Shown: positions 7,934-31,742 of the stretch, piece after piece | Layout of the letters: each line of letters opens with the position of its first letter | How positions within the stretch are numbered: position 1 is the first letter of the stretch | Assembly (NCBI GenBank): GCA_021731365.1 | Contig: JAKFXL010000007.1 | Location: forward strand, 1 to 49,620 | Direction: 5' to 3' | Source of the DNA: Gammaproteobacteria bacterium | Lineage (GTDB): Bacteria > Pseudomonadota > Gammaproteobacteria > Tenderiales > Tenderiaceae | DNA: 49,620 nt | Notes under the pieces: generated by a model | What the model was told of the DNA's origin: nothing | What the model saw: only the letters and a program-made list of their open reading frames with translations | The model's database searches: none | Program-made: the position numbers and the translations under genes

Positions 7934-10393
7934 ATGACCGCATCAAAAGCCCTGTCAGTAAAACAGCTCTATTCTTTCTGTGATGTGAGTCAGTTCGGTT
8001 TTAATACCACAGCAGAACTGGATGAGTTGAGTGAGATTATTGGCCAGGGGCGCGCCTTGGAGGCGATTCACTTTGGGCTGGGCATCAAAAAACATGGCTA
8101 TAACCTGTTTGCATTGGGGCCGGCAGGCAGTGGCAAACAGGGGGTGGTGCGCCAGCTGTTGCGGCAGCGGGCGGCCGCTGAGCCAGCATCGGTTGAGTGG
8201 TGTTACATCAATAATTTTGCTCAGCCACACAAACCCTTCGTGCTTGCCTTGCCACCTGGACGCTGTGCTCAGCTCTCGCGGGATATGGATCAGTTGGTTG
8301 AAGATCTGTGTGCTGTAATTCCGGCGGCCTTTGAAGGGGATGAGTACCATCGCCGTATTCAGGGGTTAGATGATGAGCTGTTTAACAGGCAGGAGCAGGG
8401 GGTAGAAAAAGTACGGCAGCTGGCGATAGCAAAACAGCTGGTTTTGATTCCGACTCCGAATGGCTTCACCTTTGCGGCCATGCGTGGTGATGTGGTGGTG
8501 AGTCCAAAAGAGTTCAAGCAGCTGCCTGATGATGAGCGGGTATTGCTGGAGACAGAGATTGGCTTGTTGCAGGATGAGCTGCAGCGGGTATTTAACCAGC
8601 TTCCACAATGGCAGCGTGAGGTACGGGCACAGGTTAAAACATTGGATTGCACAGTGACTCTGGCCGCCGTGGGCGGGATGGTTGAACGGTTGAGAGCCGA
8701 TTACGTGGACCATGCCAGGGTGCAGGAGTACCTGGGCGCTGTACAGGACAACATTGTGTTGACCGTTGATGAGTTCCGCCGTTTGGATGCTGCTGAAGTA
8801 TCAGTACCAGGTGATCTGTTCAAACGTTATCGGGTTAATCTGCTGGTAGGGTACAACGGTGGTGATTGTGTGCCGGTGGTTTTTGAAGACAACCCCACCT
8901 ATCAAAACCTGGTTGGGCGCGTTGAACATACAACAGTGATGGGCACGCTGGTGACCGATTTTACGTTGATCAAAGCCGGTGCCTTGCACCGTGCTAACGG
9001 TGGTTACCTGGTGCTGGATGCCAACAAGTTGCTGCAGAACCCCTTGAGTTGGGATGTATTGAAACGGGCGTTGCAGTCCAGGGCGATTCACATCGCGACT
9101 TTTGAGCAGATACAGGGGGTGGCCAGTACCGTTTCACTGGAGCCTGAACCCATACCGTTGAGTGTTAAGGTGGTGCTCCTGGGGGACCACTCACTTTATG
9201 ACCTACTGCATCAGAGTGATCCGGAGTTTAAAGAGCTGTTTAAGGTGGCGGCTGATTTTGATGACCAGATGGCGCGCAGCTCGGAGAGTAATCTGCTCTA
9301 CGCCCGCCTCATTGCCACCCTGGCCAAAAAAGAGGGGTTGATGGCGTTTGATAAGGGGGCTGTGGCACGGGTGATTGAACAGGGTGCCAGAATCTCCGGT
9401 GACGCCAAACAGCTTACTACTCACATGCGTAGTATTTGTGATCTGCTGTGTGAGTCAGATTATTACGCACAACAACAGGGTAGTGGACTGGTGCGGTGTG
9501 GCGATGTGCAGATGGCGATTGATGCACAGATTCGTCGCAGCAGCCGTATTCATACACAGGTACACGAATCGATTCAGCGCGGCCTGTTACTGATCCAGAC
9601 ACAAGGTACCGAGGTGGGACAGGTCAATGGCCTCTCCGTTATAGAGCTGGGTGCGCTGGGTTTTGGCATGCCAACCCGCATCACTGCTCAGGTGCGTGTG
9701 GGTGATGGTGATGTACTGGATATTGAACGTGAAGTGGATCTGGGTGGCCCCGTTCACTCTAAAGGTGTGATGATTCTGGCCGGTTATCTAGGCAGTCGTT
9801 ATGCCAGAAACTGTCCTCTGGCGCTCTCTGCCAGCCTGGCCTTTGAACAGTCCTATGGTGAAATTGAAGGTGATAGCGCCTCCGCAACAGAGCTGTATGC
9901 ACTGCTCTCGGCGCTTTCAGGTGTGCCGATCAAACAGGGCATTGCAGTGACGGGTTCAGTAAACCAGCGTGGACAGGTGCAGGCAATTGGTGGTGTGAAT
10001 GAGAAGATCGAAGGCTATTTTGATGTCTGTAAGTTGCAGGGATTGACGGGTGAGCAGGGGGTGCTTATTCCGCATAGCAACGTTGATGATCTGATGTTGC
10101 GCCAGGAGGTCGTGGAGGCAGTTGCCGCTGGTATGTTTACTATCTACGCGGTGACTACCATTGATGAAGGGATTGAGATTTTAACGGGGTGTGTGGCAGG
10201 TGTAGAGGATGCACAGGGCATATTTCCTGAAAATAGTGTTAATGGTAACGTGGCCTTGCAGCTGCTCCAGTTTGCCGAGTTGCGTCATGAGTTTGGTGAA
10301 GAAAAGAGAGCGGCTGCCGATGAAGAGGACGACAAACATGGCAATGACTCCAGCATTGATCTACAGGCCAATCGGAATGTGCCGCCGGGGTAA
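7934..10393 (+). CDS. Lon-like ATP-dependent protease (LonB/YcbZ type)
   Basis: 819 aa. An N-terminal AAA domain has Walker A GPAGSGKQ at residues 62-69 and a Walker B-like LVLDA after ANGGY. The C-terminal Lon protease domain has the Ser-Lys dyad: Ser648 in EGDSAS and Lys691 in GGVNEKIEG, 43 residues apart as in E. coli Lon. There is no N-terminal Lon substrate domain, so this is the 'Lon_2'/YcbZ-like branch rather than Lon itself. A long insertion between the Walker A and Walker B motifs looks helical and charged. The last 40 or so residues are acidic and variable. It is probably a soluble cytoplasmic protease; substrates are unknown. It is monocistronic, 119 bp before relA. Confidence 0.9.
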   Translation: MTASKALSVKQLYSFCDVSQFGFNTTAELDELSEIIGQGRALEAIHFGLGIKKHGYNLFALGPAGSGKQGVVRQLLRQRAAAEPASVEWCYINNFAQPHKPFVLALPPGRCAQLSRDMDQLVEDLCAVIPAAFEGDEYHRRIQGLDDELFNRQEQGVEKVRQLAIAKQLVLIPTPNGFTFAAMRGDVVVSPKEFKQLPDDERVLLETEIGLLQDELQRVFNQLPQWQREVRAQVKTLDCTVTLAAVGGMVERLRADYVDHARVQEYLGAVQDNIVLTVDEFRRLDAAEVSVPGDLFKRYRVNLLVGYNGGDCVPVVFEDNPTYQNLVGRVEHTTVMGTLVTDFTLIKAGALHRANGGYLVLDANKLLQNPLSWDVLKRALQSRAIHIATFEQIQGVASTVSLEPEPIPLSVKVVLLGDHSLYDLLHQSDPEFKELFKVAADFDDQMARSSESNLLYARLIATLAKKEGLMAFDKGAVARVIEQGARISGDAKQLTTHMRSICDLLCESDYYAQQQGSGLVRCGDVQMAIDAQIRRSSRIHTQVHESIQRGLLLIQTQGTEVGQVNGLSVIELGALGFGMPTRITAQVRVGDGDVLDIEREVDLGGPVHSKGVMILAGYLGSRYARNCPLALSASLAFEQSYGEIEGDSASATELYALLSALSGVPIKQGIAVTGSVNQRGQVQAIGGVNEKIEGYFDVCKLQGLTGEQGVLIPHSNVDDLMLRQEVVEAVAAGMFTIYAVTTIDEGIEILTGCVAGVEDAQGIFPENSVNGNVALQLLQFAELRHEFGEEKRAAADEEDDKHGNDSSIDLQANRNVPPG

Positions 10394-10512
10394 CATGTTA
10401 TCTGTGAGTGATGGTGTTTTAATCTCGCAGTGATGCGGATTACTATTTAAACAGTCACAGTGGTCGGAAAACGGTTCCGTTTTTACTATTCGATAACTGA
10501 TATGGAAAGCTG

Positions 10513-12726
10513 ATGGTCAATGTAACAAGTTCCCATGGTGGAGACTCCAGCAAGGGATACATCGATGTCGATGAGTGGCTTACATCCATTGAGAAAAAAT
10601 ACCCCGAAGAGGGGTTTAAAACTATCAGTCGTGCCTGCAGCATGGCGCAGCAGGCGCACGCCGGTCAGATGCGCGTCTCGGGTGCCCCCTATTTTCAACA
10701 CTCTCTTGCAGTAGCCAATATTCTGGTGGAAGTGCATATGGATTACGAGGCCGTATCGGCAGCGATTCTCCATGATGTTGTTGAAGATACCGACATCACC
10801 CTTGAGCAGGTGCGTACGGAGTTTGGTAACAGCATTGCTGCGCTGGTGGATGGGGTGACTAAAATGATGGTCATTCAGAGCTTCAAGGGGCTGGATGACG
10901 CCTCGCGCAAAGAGAAAAAAGAGCAGGCGCAGGCAGAAAGTCTCCGCAAAATGTTGTTGGCGATGGTGGAGGATGTGCGGGTGGTATTGATCAAGCTTGC
11001 TGATCGCACTCACAACATGCGTACCTTGGGGTCGTTGCCGGAACATAAGCAGAAACGTATCGCTCGCGAAACCCTGGATATCTACGCCCCACTGGCAAAC
11101 AGATTGGGCATGTGGCAGATCAAGTGGGAGCTGGAAGATCTGGCCTTTCGCTACATTGAGGCTGAGACCTACAAACGTATTGCCAAAATGCTCGATGAAC
11201 GGCGTGTGGATCGTGAACGGTACATTCGTGAGTTTATTGAAACTCTGCAACGTGAACTGACCAAGACAGAGGTTAAGGCCGATATCACTGGCCGCTCCAA
11301 ACATATCTACAGCATCTATCGCAAGATGGAGCGTAAAAACATCGACTATCACCAGGTATACGACGCCCGTGGTGTACGTATATTGGTGGATACTATCCCG
11401 CAATGTTATACCGCGCTGGGCATTGTGCACTCGCTCTGGAACCATATCCCCGGCGAATTTGATGACTACATTGCCACGCCAAAACAGAATAACTACCAAT
11501 CTATCCACACCGCGATTTTTGGTCCCGATGGCAAGGTGGTGGAGGTGCAGATCCGTACCCATAAAATGCACCAGGATAATGAGCTGGGTGTGGCAGCACA
11601 CTGGCGTTATAAAGAAGGCACCGGTTTTGATGCCGATTTTGAGCGCAAGATAGCGTGGTTACGGCAGCTGCTGGAGTGGAAAGAGGAGGTCACTGATGCT
11701 GGTGACTTTGTTGATCAATTTAAGTCAGACTCGTTTGAAGACCGTATCTATCTGTTTACCCCAAAGGGCAATGTAGTCGACCTGCCCAAAGGGGCAACCC
11801 CGCTCGATTTTGCCTATCACATCCATACAGAGCTGGGGCATCGCTGCCGTGGTGCCAAGGTTAATAACCATATGGTGCCCCTGACCTATCAACTTAAAAC
11901 CGGCGAACAGGTTGAAATTCTGTCAGTGAAACGGGGGGAGCCGAGTCGTGACTGGTTAAACACAGAGCTGGGGTATCTACACACTACGCGCGCCCGGAGC
12001 AAGGCGTTGCATTGGTTTAAGCTGCAGCACTTTGATACCAATGTTGGCACAGGCCGCGTCATGCTCGAAAAAGAGTTGCGACGGCTGGGATTGAGTGAGG
12101 TGAATTTTGAAAAGCTATCGCGGCAGCTGAACATTCCTAAAGTAGATGAGTTTTTTGCTGCATTTGGCCGAGGTGAAATTAAAACCTCACAAGTGGTTAA
12201 AGTGATTCAATCGCTGAGTGATACAGAAGAAAAAGAGGTTCAGATTCAGCCGCGCCCACCTAAGAGCGACGGTGAAGGTGGTGTGACCATTGAAGGGGTT
12301 GGTAACCTGCTAACCCAAATTGCAAACTGTTGCAAACCGCTACCAGGTGATGAGATCTGTGGCTATATCACCCGCGGTCGTGGAGTCACCATTCATCGTA
12401 AGGACTGTGCCAATATTTTGCGTTATATCAATCAGTCGCCAGAGCGGTTGGTTGAAGTGGCGTGGGGCGAGGAGGTGAATGAAAAGGTCTATCCTGTTGA
12501 TATTCAGATACGTGCATTTGACAGACAGGGATTGTTGCGGGACGTGGCCGCCATCCTCTCCAGCGACCGGGTGAATATCATTGCGGTGAATACTATTACG
12601 GATCAAAAACATCACATCGCCAGCATGACCTTGACGTTAGAGATTAATGATCTGGATGAACTAAGCCGCCTGCTGCAAAAGATAGATGCGCTGCCTAATG
12701 TGCTGGATGTTAAACGCCAGGGGTAG
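10513..12726 (+). CDS. relA: RelA/SpoT-family (p)ppGpp synthetase, RelA clade, with intact HD site
   Basis: 737 aa long RSH with HD hydrolase, synthetase, TGS (starting near EDRIYLFTPKG) and C-terminal ACT (VDIQIRAFDRQGLLRD) domains. It makes, and may degrade, (p)ppGpp in the stringent response. The synthetase region resembles RelA: PLANRLGMWQIKWELEDLAF, and the catalytic loop has EFDD (315-318), the acidic EXDD signature of monofunctional RelA rather than the RXKD of SpoT/Rel. Unlike classical gammaproteobacterial RelA, the HD site is intact: His63, His87-Asp88, Glu91-Asp92 and LADRTHNMR (162-170). The protein could therefore be bifunctional. Assignment as relA rests on the synthetase half; no other RSH gene is in the window. 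Confidence 0.88.
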   Translation: MVNVTSSHGGDSSKGYIDVDEWLTSIEKKYPEEGFKTISRACSMAQQAHAGQMRVSGAPYFQHSLAVANILVEVHMDYEAVSAAILHDVVEDTDITLEQVRTEFGNSIAALVDGVTKMMVIQSFKGLDDASRKEKKEQAQAESLRKMLLAMVEDVRVVLIKLADRTHNMRTLGSLPEHKQKRIARETLDIYAPLANRLGMWQIKWELEDLAFRYIEAETYKRIAKMLDERRVDRERYIREFIETLQRELTKTEVKADITGRSKHIYSIYRKMERKNIDYHQVYDARGVRILVDTIPQCYTALGIVHSLWNHIPGEFDDYIATPKQNNYQSIHTAIFGPDGKVVEVQIRTHKMHQDNELGVAAHWRYKEGTGFDADFERKIAWLRQLLEWKEEVTDAGDFVDQFKSDSFEDRIYLFTPKGNVVDLPKGATPLDFAYHIHTELGHRCRGAKVNNHMVPLTYQLKTGEQVEILSVKRGEPSRDWLNTELGYLHTTRARSKALHWFKLQHFDTNVGTGRVMLEKELRRLGLSEVNFEKLSRQLNIPKVDEFFAAFGRGEIKTSQVVKVIQSLSDTEEKEVQIQPRPPKSDGEGGVTIEGVGNLLTQIANCCKPLPGDEICGYITRGRGVTIHRKDCANILRYINQSPERLVEVAWGEEVNEKVYPVDIQIRAFDRQGLLRDVAAILSSDRVNIIAVNTITDQKHHIASMTLTLEINDLDELSRLLQKIDALPNVLDVKRQG

Positions 12727-12758
12727 TGATCCCGCTCAGTAAATTTATCTACAGGCGC

Positions 12759-13055
12759 TCAGCGGTCACTATCGGCATAAAACCCCATATACTCCAAACC
12801 CTCTGAGCCTGAGGCGGTATCCAATGTGAAAAAATCCAGCTCTCTGACAGGTTCTTCTAACTCTTCCAGCCACTCCTCATCGGGTTCTATCTCCATGGCC
12901 CCCAGTTTGTGCCATATATCCATCTCAACATCTTCATAGTTACCATCTGGATACTGTATCTGTATGCCCCCGTGCTCAATGTCAGTAATACGGAAGACTT
13001 CGGCATCGGCCAGTCGATACCATTGATGGAGCTTGGGTGGGATTGGCGAATACAT
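12759..13055 (-). CDS. small acidic protein of unknown function
   Basis: 98 aa, acidic, with no signal peptide or membrane helix. It begins MYSPIPPKLHQWYRLADAE and has several Trp, Tyr and Glu residues (IQIQYPDGNYEDVEMDIWHKL). An excellent ribosome site (GGAAGGAG, 7 bp upstream of ATG) supports it as a real gene. The short beta-strand pattern with a PDGNYE turn suggests a small beta-barrel or Tudor-like fold, but I do not recognise the family. It is convergent with relA, ending 32 bp from its stop, and divergent from hpf. Confidence 0.72.
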   Translation of the reverse strand: MYSPIPPKLHQWYRLADAEVFRITDIEHGGIQIQYPDGNYEDVEMDIWHKLGAMEIEPDEEWLEELEEPVRELDFFTLDTASGSEGLEYMGFYADSDR

Positions 13056-13361
13056 AACAGCTCTCCTTCCGCCATATAAATGGCTTATATCCGCACGGGT
13101 GAGTGAAAACAGAGGGTGTTGCCACTATGCCAGGTACTGCGGATATCCGGGCTAGTGTTGTTGCGTAACCATTAGGTATATCGACGTTGGTAACGTTCAT
13201 CTTGAACTTATTTATATAGTAAAAAACTAGTAGGCGTGATGTGGAAAATGTATTTATACTGGAAGTCAGAAGAGTTTTTTCCCTGCCGGGCATTAGCCGT
13301 TTCATCCAGGCGTGGGCAGGGTGGGTAAATCGGATGAACAGCAAATACCAAGGAGAAATAT
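13056..13361. other. intergenic region between divergent genes
   Basis: About 306 bp that must hold the promoters of the minus-strand acidic-protein gene and plus-strand hpf. The hpf ribosome site (AAGGAG, 13350-13355) is clear. The part around 13200-13250 is AT-rich (tatttatatag). I could not pick a convincing -35/-10 or -24/-12 pair, and I see no repeat or RNA structure. Confidence 0.5.
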
Positions 13362-13724
13362 ATGAAACTACCGCTGCAAATTACCTCCCGCAACGTCTCT
13401 CTTTCTGAAGCAGCAGAGCAGACTATTCGTGAAAAAGCAGCGAAGCTGGACCAACTCTGTGACTGTATCATGGGGTGTCGTGTTCTGGTTGAAGCGCCAC
13501 ATCGCCACCAAAACCAAGGGAATCAATACAATGTTGTGATTGATATTACTGTCCCTGGTTCTGAGATTGTGATCAAACGTGAAGAGAATGAGGACCTTTA
13601 CGTTGCCATTCGTGATGCCTTTGAGGCGGCTAAACGTAAGGTTAAAGAGTATTCTGATCGTCAAAAGGATGTAAAGGGCGCAGAGGGTATTCCACTGGTG
13701 GATATGGAACCCACACCTGAGTAA
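13362..13724 (+). CDS. hpf: ribosome hibernation promoting factor (HPF/RaiA family)
   Basis: 120 aa with the small HPF/YfiA fold: N-terminal strand LPLQITSRNVSLSEAAEQTI, the central strand NVVIDITVPG and the helix EDLYVAIRDAFEAAKRKVK. These proteins bind the 30S decoding centre and inactivate ribosomes, with 100S dimer formation, in stationary phase or starvation. The protein is somewhat longer than short HPF (about 95 aa) and lacks the long-HPF C-terminal domain; the last 15 residues are an acidic tail. AAGGAG lies 6 bp before the ATG. It stands alone, not in the rpoN-hpf cluster common elsewhere. Confidence 0.92.
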   Translation: MKLPLQITSRNVSLSEAAEQTIREKAAKLDQLCDCIMGCRVLVEAPHRHQNQGNQYNVVIDITVPGSEIVIKREENEDLYVAIRDAFEAAKRKVKEYSDRQKDVKGAEGIPLVDMEPTPE

Positions 13725-13754
13725 TTTACTCCAGTAATGTTGTTTAGATATCGA

Positions 13755-13782
13755 CTGTGCCAGGGACTGGTTCCTGGCACAG
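13755..13782. terminator. hairpin between hpf and nitroreductase gene
   Basis: A perfect 10-bp stem (CTGTGCCAGG / CCTGGCACAG) with an 8-nt loop lies between two convergent genes, 30 bp after the hpf stop and 4 bp before the stop of the minus-strand nitroreductase. Placement suggests a shared bidirectional terminator, but neither side has a run of T. Confidence 0.5.
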
Positions 13783-13786
13783 GTTG

Positions 13787-14386
13787 TTAGAAGGTGTTGA
13801 GGTACAGTACCTCCTCCAGTGTCAATTGCCCTGCGCGTGGGTACGGTTCTTTAAGTTGTTTGCCAATGGCCAGCATTAAGCAGATGCCATGGTCCTTCGG
13901 TAGTTTAAGTAGCGTGGCCACCTCGTTGTATTTAAATCCCAGCATGGGGCATGAGTCATAGCCCATCTCTTTGGCCTTGAGCATTAATGTCATGGTCGCC
14001 ATGGAGGCCGAACGAATGGCCTCATCGTGCTCAGCCTGAGCACTCTGTCCGTAGTAGCCCATGTTTCTAAGCATTGCGCTGGCAACCTCCTCAGGTGCGT
14101 TGCGCCAGTAACGTTCAGGCTCTTTTTGCCAAGCTTTTATGTCCATGCAGATGAAGAGCAGCAGTGAAGCATCGGTAACCTGAGGCTGATCCCAGGATAG
14201 TGTCCGCAGTTGTTGCCGTAGCCCTTTGTCCTCTGCCCAGAGAAAACGCCAGTGCTGAATGTTAAATGCCGTTGGGGAGAGCATAGCAGCTGTGATGAGC
14301 TCCTCAACCTCGGCTTTGGTTATCTCGTGGTTAGGGTCAAAAAGCTCGATTGAGCGGCGGGTTTCGATGGCGTGGCTAACATTCAC
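13787..14386 (-). CDS. nitroreductase family oxidoreductase
   Basis: 199 aa. The N-terminal ETRRSIELFD with a nearby AAMLSPTAFNIQHWRFLW is the FMN-binding signature of the nitroreductase superfamily (Arg-Arg-Ser and the Ser/Pro-rich loop). The C-terminal region KLPKDHGICLMLAIGKQL matches the family's closing strand (usually LAIGYP). Members reduce nitro compounds, quinones or flavins with NAD(P)H; the physiological substrate is unknown. Start is GTG at 14386. It is monocistronic and convergent with hpf. Confidence 0.88.
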   Translation of the reverse strand: MNVSHAIETRRSIELFDPNHEITKAEVEELITAAMLSPTAFNIQHWRFLWAEDKGLRQQLRTLSWDQPQVTDASLLLFICMDIKAWQKEPERYWRNAPEEVASAMLRNMGYYGQSAQAEHDEAIRSASMATMTLMLKAKEMGYDSCPMLGFKYNEVATLLKLPKDHGICLMLAIGKQLKEPYPRAGQLTLEEVLYLNTF

Positions 14387-29682: not shown

Positions 29683-30408
29683 TTGAATATTTTCGCGTTT
29701 ACCTTTGCCACCATCCCCGATATCAGTGCGGGCCGTAAGCTCTATAACCTTGATGGGCTGAATGATAAAAATGTCGCTGAGGTGATGTTTCATCGTCAAC
29801 GTCAGTTCAAGGGTGATGAGCGGCTGCCCCTGCATCAACAGCAGATTGTGGCGCTTACGGCGTTATTGAGAACGGCTGACGCCATTAAGCTGGTGACGTT
29901 TGATGGGTGTTCCGGTTCGGAACAGGAGCTGGTGCAGCAGTTTTTTGCACTGATGGAAAAACATGCGCCGATGCTGGTCACCTGGAACGGTGCAGCGTTC
30001 GAACGTCCGGTGATGCATTACCGGTCTGTGTTTCATGGCGTGGGTTCTAACCACTACTGGAACAGCCATGCCCACCATCTGGATCTGGTAACACAGTTTA
30101 CCGGTAGTGATGCCGATGTAGCGGCACCGCTGGGTGAGATTGCCGCGCTGTTAGATCTGCCTGTTAATACAGAGCTGTCTAATAACTGGGATCTTCATTT
30201 GGCCGGAGAGCTAGAACAGATTCAGAACAACATCACCGTTGATGCTTTTAATATCTATCTGATCCATCTGCGCCTGCAGCTGGTGAGTGGACGTCTCTCC
30301 CAGGAGCGTTATAAAAGTGAGTGTCAGAAACTGCGCGAGCTGTTGCAACAGCAGGGCCAGCCATTTATAGATGACTATCTGGGCCGTTGGGTGGGGGGTG
30401 AAGCGTAA
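29683..30408 (+). CDS. PolB-type 3'-5' exonuclease homologue with degenerate active site
   Basis: 241 aa from a TTG start; the stop overlaps the rlmD start (TAATG). It aligns by eye along its length with the predicted 3'-5' exonucleases related to the PolB exonuclease domain: [49 protein letters not shown]. The family's motif I, usually FDIETIPD, reads FTFATIPD here: the catalytic Asp is Thr7 and the Glu is Ala9. Motif II has Glu in place of the usual Asp (FERP for FDLP). The motif III Asp is retained (ITVDAFN). Nuclease activity is therefore doubtful, although the gene is intact. The weak TTG start suggests low expression. Confidence 0.8.
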
Positions 30409-31742
30409 TGGGGCGCAATCGTCGTAACCGTAAGGTGATGCCAGCAGAGCCATTTCCTGCCCATATAGATTCACTTGAGCATGATGGCCGCGGTGTTGCA
30501 CGTATTGACGGTAAAATTGTCTTTATCGAAGGGGCATTGCCTGATGAAGATGTGATGTTTCATTACACCGCCCAACATAAAAGTTATGACGAAGGGCGTG
30601 TCAGTGAAGTGATCAAGGCTTCGCCGTCGCGTATTAAACCGGGATGTTCTCATTTTGAAATATGCGGCGGCTGTTCGTTGCAACATATGGAGCCTGCGGC
30701 ACAGATAAATGCTAAGCAGCAGATTTTGATCGATGGTTTTAAACATATCGGTAAGGTGATGCCAGAGACAATTTTGCCACCACTTACCGCTAGCCGTTGG
30801 GGATACCGCCGTAAAGCCCGGTTGGGCTGTAAATATGTGATTAAAAAAGAGGCGCAGTTTGTCGGTTTTCGCGAGAAGCGCAGTGCCTTTCTGGCGGACC
30901 TCAACCGTTGCGAAGTATTGCATCCTGCGGTGGGCGAACGGATTGCCGATCTGAAGCTGTTAACGCGCAGTCTCGAGGCCTACGATCGCATCGCCCAGAT
31001 TGAAGTGGCCATTGGCGATAGCGTGGTGGCGCTGATATTCCGTAACCTGGATGAGCTGGTGAGTGGTGACATCGACAAGCTGTGTCAGTTTGGCGTAGCC
31101 CATAATATTCACATCTATCTACAGCCCAAAGGGCCTGATAGTGTCTACCTGATCTGGCCCGAGTCGTCGCAGCTCTCATATCGACTGGATGATTTTGATC
31201 TGGAGATACTGTTTAAACCCAATGATTTCACTCAGGTGAATACAGAGATCAATCATCTGATGGTTAAATGTGCGGTTGAGATGCTTGATATACAACCCGA
31301 GGAACGGGTATTGGATCTTTTTTGTGGGTTAGGCAACTTCACCCTGCCATTAGCACGTAAGGCGGGTTACGTTGTCGGCGTAGAGGGCGATGAGCAGCTG
31401 GTACAGCGTGGTCGTGAAAATGCCGCACATAACCACATTACCAATATTGAGTTTCATGGCGCTGATCTGACCAAGGAGCCACACAGCCAGCCGTGGTTTG
31501 GGAGTGGTTTCGATAAAATATTGATCGACCCGCCACGCAGCGGTGCATATGAAATCGCAAAATATCTTGATGGCTTTGGGGCCAAAAAAATAGTCTATGT
31601 CTCATGCAACCCGGCAACACTGGCACGTGATGCAGGTGTGTTGGTGGAAAAGGGGTACAAACTTGTATCTGCGGGCGTGATGGATATGTTTCCACACACA
31701 ACCCATGTGGAGTCGATAGCGCTGTTTGAGCGGAGTGTTTGA
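30408..31742 (+). CDS. rlmD: 23S rRNA (uracil-1939-C5)-methyltransferase RlmD
   Basis: 444 aa. An N-terminal TRAM domain ([21 protein letters not shown], shown in part) is followed by the cysteine cluster [10 protein letters not shown] for a [4Fe-4S] centre. The SAM site is [15 protein letters not shown], and the catalytic Cys is in [13 protein letters not shown]. It methylates U1939 of 23S rRNA. Its start overlaps the stop of the exonuclease homologue. In E. coli and many relatives rlmD is next to relA; here relA lies about 18 kb away. Confidence 0.95.

Follow-up and report, generated by a model that had tools for sequence, protein, structure and literature searches.

A gammaproteobacterial RelA orthologue with an EFDD synthetase motif and a complete hydrolase site

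RelA is conventionally understood to make the alarm signal ppGpp and not to hydrolyse it. Work by Sajish (2009), as relayed by Atkinson (2011), reportedly concerned the EXDD and RXKD motifs of the synthetase domain. According to Sinha and Winther, gammaproteobacterial RelAs exclusively synthesise, the pseudo-hydrolase domain being inactive (PMC8012599). Tamman et al. placed the loss of the RelA hydrolase soon after the duplication of relA and spoT (PMC9974481); a duplication origin of RelA is assumed both there and by Atkinson 2011 (PMC3153485).

The window, that is, the whole stretch of 49,620 nucleotides analysed here (contig JAKFXL010000007.1, from a member of the Tenderiaceae), contains a long RSH gene whose 737-aa product has the standard domain order of HD, RelA_SpoT, TGS, AH/RIS and ACT (Table 1). 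The gene lies in a segment (7934-14386) comprising a LonB-type protease, relA, a small minus-strand ORF, the ribosome-hibernation factor HPF and a nitroreductase. This gene order, small ORF included, was conserved in Tenderiaceae (L032, L033, L034, L242 and L243). In Pseudomonas, Legionella and Alteromonas, relA is adjoined by rlmD; in the window, rlmD is apparently a TrmA-like ORF (30408-31742), 18 kb from relA.

Table 1. Position of the RelA gene, its domains and its motifs within the window
Feature	Position	Strand	Basis
Long RSH gene (RelA orthologue), EFDD and intact HD, 737 aa, ATG start	10513..12726	+	ORF, RelA equivalog score, trees
HD (ppGpp hydrolase) domain PF13328 (HD_4), residues 41-201	10633..11115	+	Pfam; 13/13 checked active-site residues
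R54, S56, Y60, H63, hydrolase site	10672..10701	+	Alignment to RelSeq positions
HD87-88 and ED91-92 (HDxxED motif)	10771..10788	+	
Extended H-loop, helices 6-7, 27 residues	10864..10944	+	RelA feature in PMC8012599
K161, D164, R165, N168, T171 (KLADRTHNMRT)	10993..11025	+	
Synthetase domain PF04607 (RelA_SpoT), residues 260-369	11290..11619	+	Pfam
EFDD motif, residues 315-318, RelA-type acidic loop	11455..11466	+	
TGS domain, residues 412-470	11746..11922	+	Pfam
Alpha-helical and RIS/zinc-finger region (AH/RIS), residues 492-605	11986..12327	+	Pfam
ACT/RRM domain (ACT_4), residues 658-735	12484..12717	+	Pfam

Thirteen hydrolase positions were scored on RelSeq numbering (R44, S46, Y50, H53, H77, D78, E81, D82, K141, D144, R145, N148 and T151), a set that includes the equivalents of A. 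baumannii SpoT Y51, E82, D83, N147, K140 and R144, where mutation abolished or reduced hydrolysis (PMC9974481). All 13 counterparts in the window protein (R54, S56, Y60, H63, H87, D88, E91, D92, K161, D164, R165, N168 and T171) matched RelSeq, RelBsu and SpoT, and every HD residue listed in the initial annotation (His63, HD87-88, ED91-92 and DRTHN) was present and correctly numbered. The co-occurrence of an EFDD synthetase motif and a complete hydrolase site in one RelA was confirmed. Against PF13328, the HD domain scored 202.7 bits, compared with 177.4 for that of the SpoT encoded in the same genome. The position of RelSeq K45 is occupied by V; this was rejected as a sign of inactivity because the position varies (K/A/S/N/V/M/R) across Rel and SpoT too. 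A structural model of residues 1-394 had a mean pLDDT of 78, with a loop (121-127) and both ends poorly modelled; the N-terminal model was closest to the catalytic fragment of the bifunctional S. aureus Rel (7oiw: Z = 40.1, 327 residues superposed at 1.3 A), above ribosome-bound RelA (5iqr: Z = 34.8). The predicted fold resembles that of bifunctional Rel, although a shared fold is no demonstration of activity.

By descent, the window protein is a RelA. It passed the NCBI RelA equivalog (NF008124: 791.8 bits, cut-off 728) and failed the SpoT equivalog (NF008303: 632 bits, cut-off 947). Its H-loop is 27 residues long, against 15-18 in SpoT and Rel of other phyla and 17 in the SpoT of the same genome; an extended H-loop has been described as unique to RelA homologues (PMC8012599). 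The initial annotation had proposed a phylogeny of long RSH proteins and a search for a separate spoT. The former, calculated from synthetase and C-terminal columns only, placed the sequence among gammaproteobacteria inside a 74-row RelA clade (SH-aLRT 99); since HD columns were left out, this placement is insensitive to any decay of that domain. The latter identified a second long RSH with the motif KFKD (G000:C8), which is SpoT, and no PF13328 proteins other than RelA and SpoT were found in the genome.

The combination of motifs was not confined to this genome. EXDD RelAs retaining 8/8 core HD residues in at least one member were found in 29 of the 68 gammaproteobacterial families characterised (in the GTDB sense, Betaproteobacteria included), although these families were drawn from the top of the similarity ranking to the window, and the true share of intact families is lower because the sample is enriched for such similarity. 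The RelA sequences tabulated for their motifs were chosen by phmmer. The initial annotation had named, as one half of a refuting condition, that other members of the clade commonly carry both motifs; such members proved to occur in at least 29 families. An assembly artefact or isolated oddity was rejected because other members of the Tenderiaceae, and 28 families besides, have identical residues.

Elsewhere among RelAs, the HD site was decayed to varying degrees. E. coli RelA kept 2 of the 13 hydrolase residues and none of the eight core residues, and the RelAs of Pseudomonas and Legionella likewise scored 0/8; the series was graded, through 6/8 in RSYHHDLHKDRNT, 5/8 in RSYHHDDKKEQNT and 4/8 in -SSHHEEDKARTT, to 0/8 at its lowest. 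Intact RelAs occurred together with decayed or partly decayed ones in four families (f1, f37, f152 and f160). In f1, the family of the window, the sole change was H53R in one MAG (G008, locus L096), which marks either the onset of decay or a mistake in the MAG; it implies that constraint on the HD site is not absolute. Two partly decayed RelAs from Candidatus Marithrix (L060 and L061) had shortened ORFs of ~650 aa, and had lost R44 and S46 while retaining H53, H77 and N148.

Intact and decayed RelAs were intermixed on the tree, requiring a minimum of about 15 state changes, a count that is indicative only, or 9 when fewer sequences were used; with weak support for the deep RelA forks, the losses cannot be counted exactly. 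Forcing all decayed RelAs into one clade, as a single ancestral loss would imply, was rejected (lnL difference = 217, AU p = 6.7e-7). Given that the Chloroflexota outgroup is intact, and that the regain of ~10 catalytic residues is implausible, the direction of change would be repeated loss. RelA seems, from these phylogenies, to have lost its hydrolase site several separate times, and not once.

Where the site is retained, it has been constrained. Among 65 intact EXDD RelAs, selected for the eight core residues but not for the other five, there was no amino-acid change at 12 of the 13 positions, and synonymous codons varied at every one; position 50 was Y in 63 sequences and F in two. With the 13 sites excluded, HD identity was 54-56% for intact RelAs and 31-37% for degenerate RelAs, where SYN identity was 55-75%. 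This indicates that the HD domains of intact RelAs evolve more slowly than decayed ones, under purifying selection.

The window gene, a RelA orthologue, probably keeps the ancestral bifunctional state, RelA[HS]. The complete site, purifying selection, nesting within the RelA clade and the separate SpoT make this the best-supported reading at the level of sequence, as the initial annotation had suggested, but the accompanying idea that retention is specific to this lineage did not hold, at least 29 families having kept the site. As a RelA[HS], the protein would make ppGpp with its EFDD synthetase when activated on the ribosome by uncharged tRNA, as in E. coli RelA. Off the ribosome, (p)ppGpp would be hydrolysed at the intact HD site, in an Mn-dependent reaction; the synthetase and hydrolase states would be mutually exclusive, as in Rel. 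SpoT and RelA[HS] may then share labour, hydrolysis being duplicated in the cell. Several points count against a bifunctional enzyme: where SpoT is present a functional RelA hydrolase is not strictly required, the extended H-loop is of a type described from hydrolase-inactive RelAs (PMC8012599), the G008 RelA of the same family carries H53R, and V replaces RelSeq K45, albeit at a variable position. A search of open-access journal papers found no biochemical data or reports on RelA with an intact HD domain.

The main rivals to a bifunctional RelA are a site that is competent but silent in vivo, and a nucleotide sensor. The first supposes that the hydrolase is competent in isolation, while the RelA C-terminal domains lock a synthetase-prone state in the cell, making the enzyme synthesis-only in practice. 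The hydrolase/synthetase balance of SpoT is set by its CTD and core elements (PMC9974481), but long retention in many families and purifying selection on the HD domain argue for use in vivo, and a silent site is considered unlikely. The second supposes that the HD site binds (p)ppGpp or another nucleotide as an allosteric sensor for the synthetase, with negligible hydrolysis. It has a precedent in the pseudo-HD of E. coli, which controls synthesis via the H-loop (PMC8012599), and the window protein has the extended loop; however, E. coli RelA regulates without metal and catalytic residues, which a sensor does not need, and yet H63, H87, D88, E91, D92, D164 and N168 have all been kept here, leaving a mere sensor quite improbable.

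The bifunctional reading of the EFDD-bearing window protein has a counterpart in Chloroflexota, where named genomes encode EFDD, ELDD or QFDD alongside an intact HD domain. This Rel was the only PF04607 protein in nearly all of those genomes and the only PF13328 protein in most, although these are draft MAGs, so that lack of a second gene is uncertain in any single genome. As the sole long RSH, the Chloroflexota EXDD enzyme plausibly performs both reactions. The motif distribution indicates that EXDD does not mark synthesis-only enzymes; the initial annotation was wrong to treat EFDD as a signature of synthesis alone, given that many gammaproteobacterial RelAs, like the Rel of Chloroflexota, combine it with an intact HD domain. 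A contig named as Steroidobacteraceae (JAICUY010000012.1, L043) encoded a QFDD Rel nested among those of Chloroflexota, and is probably misbinned or misnamed. Another genome (G035) encoded an EFDD RelA together with a long RSH bearing LFDD (L112) that grouped with SpoT, placing an acidic motif beyond the clade of RelA and Chloroflexota Rel.

Many matches ranking below Tenderiaceae in the scan of named genomes came from Chloroflexota (45-54% identity), but the view that the window gene is a recently transferred Chloroflexota Rel, and hence no RelA, was rejected as very remote, since trees put it in the RelA clade beside other gammaproteobacteria, its identity to Pseudomonas RelA is 51% over its full length, and the order LonB-relA-orf-HPF is common to related genomes.

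Because some RelAs are intact, the HD domain of RelA itself can be used to place it. Once the EXDD columns had been deleted, RelA and the EXDD Rel of Chloroflexota formed a group (SH-aLRT 92 for the NTD and 100 at full length), and SpoT grouped with alpha- and zetaproteobacterial Rel in the same NTD and full-length trees; the alpha and zeta labels were partly inferred from RSH content, with Azospirillum and Sinorhizobium sequences as anchors. Duplication within Proteobacteria requires that RelA, SpoT and alphaproteobacterial Rel group together, and trees in which they were forced to do so were rejected (p = 0.017 for the NTD, p = 0.0055 at full length). These trees suggest that RelA and Chloroflexota EXDD Rel form a clade that excludes SpoT and alphaproteobacterial Rel, contrary to a duplication origin; however, phylum sampling was thin and the searches were 'quick', and so this is held tentatively, at somewhat less than an even chance. 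A joint account, which is more doubtful, would derive RelA from an EXDD bifunctional Rel shared with Chloroflexota, by ancient lateral transfer and not by duplication of Rel/SpoT; RelA would have entered Proteobacteria as a bifunctional enzyme and undergone many independent losses, and living bifunctional RelA[HS] would be represented by the window gene and by related genes from at least 29 families.

Should many RelA lineages hydrolyse ppGpp, the accepted account of early loss and exclusive synthesis would fail, EXDD would be unusable for calling enzymes synthesis-only, and some species should be able to do without spoT. Deletion of spoT alone was not achieved in Xanthomonas (PMC8693919). The natural series of intact sites, sites with one residue lost, half-decayed and fully decayed sites would offer material for studying how a catalytic domain becomes a regulatory one.

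Compared with known systems, the window protein resembles the RelA[hS] of Beta- and Gammaproteobacteria, typified by E. coli RelA, in its EFDD motif, extended H-loop, TGS, AH/RIS and ACT domains, coexistence with SpoT and NF008124 score above the cut-off. It differs in having 8/8 core HD residues where E. coli RelA has 0/8, and in keeping all 13 of the wider set it lacks the degenerate HD domain by which RelA[hS] is defined as synthetase-only (Atkinson 2011). SpoT[HS] shares the intact HD site and is encoded in the same genome, but has an RXKD-type motif (KFKD), a short H-loop (17 residues) and a separate clade, and the window protein scores below the SpoT equivalog cut-off. The Rel[HS] of Firmicutes and Actinobacteria (RelSeq, RelBsu and RelMsm) have identical hydrolase-site residues and the closest predicted fold, but an RXKD motif, a short loop and a distant position in the tree; they are typically the one long RSH of their genome (PMC3153485). 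Of the features that define Rel[HS], the window protein has the complete HD and synthetase domains, but neither RXKD nor the status of sole long RSH. The EXDD-type Rel[HS] of Chloroflexota, which branches as sister to RelA, likewise combines E/QFDD with an intact HD domain, but usually shares its genome with no other PF04607/PF13328 protein, and most E-type members have an H-loop of 35-47 residues, longer than that of the window protein.
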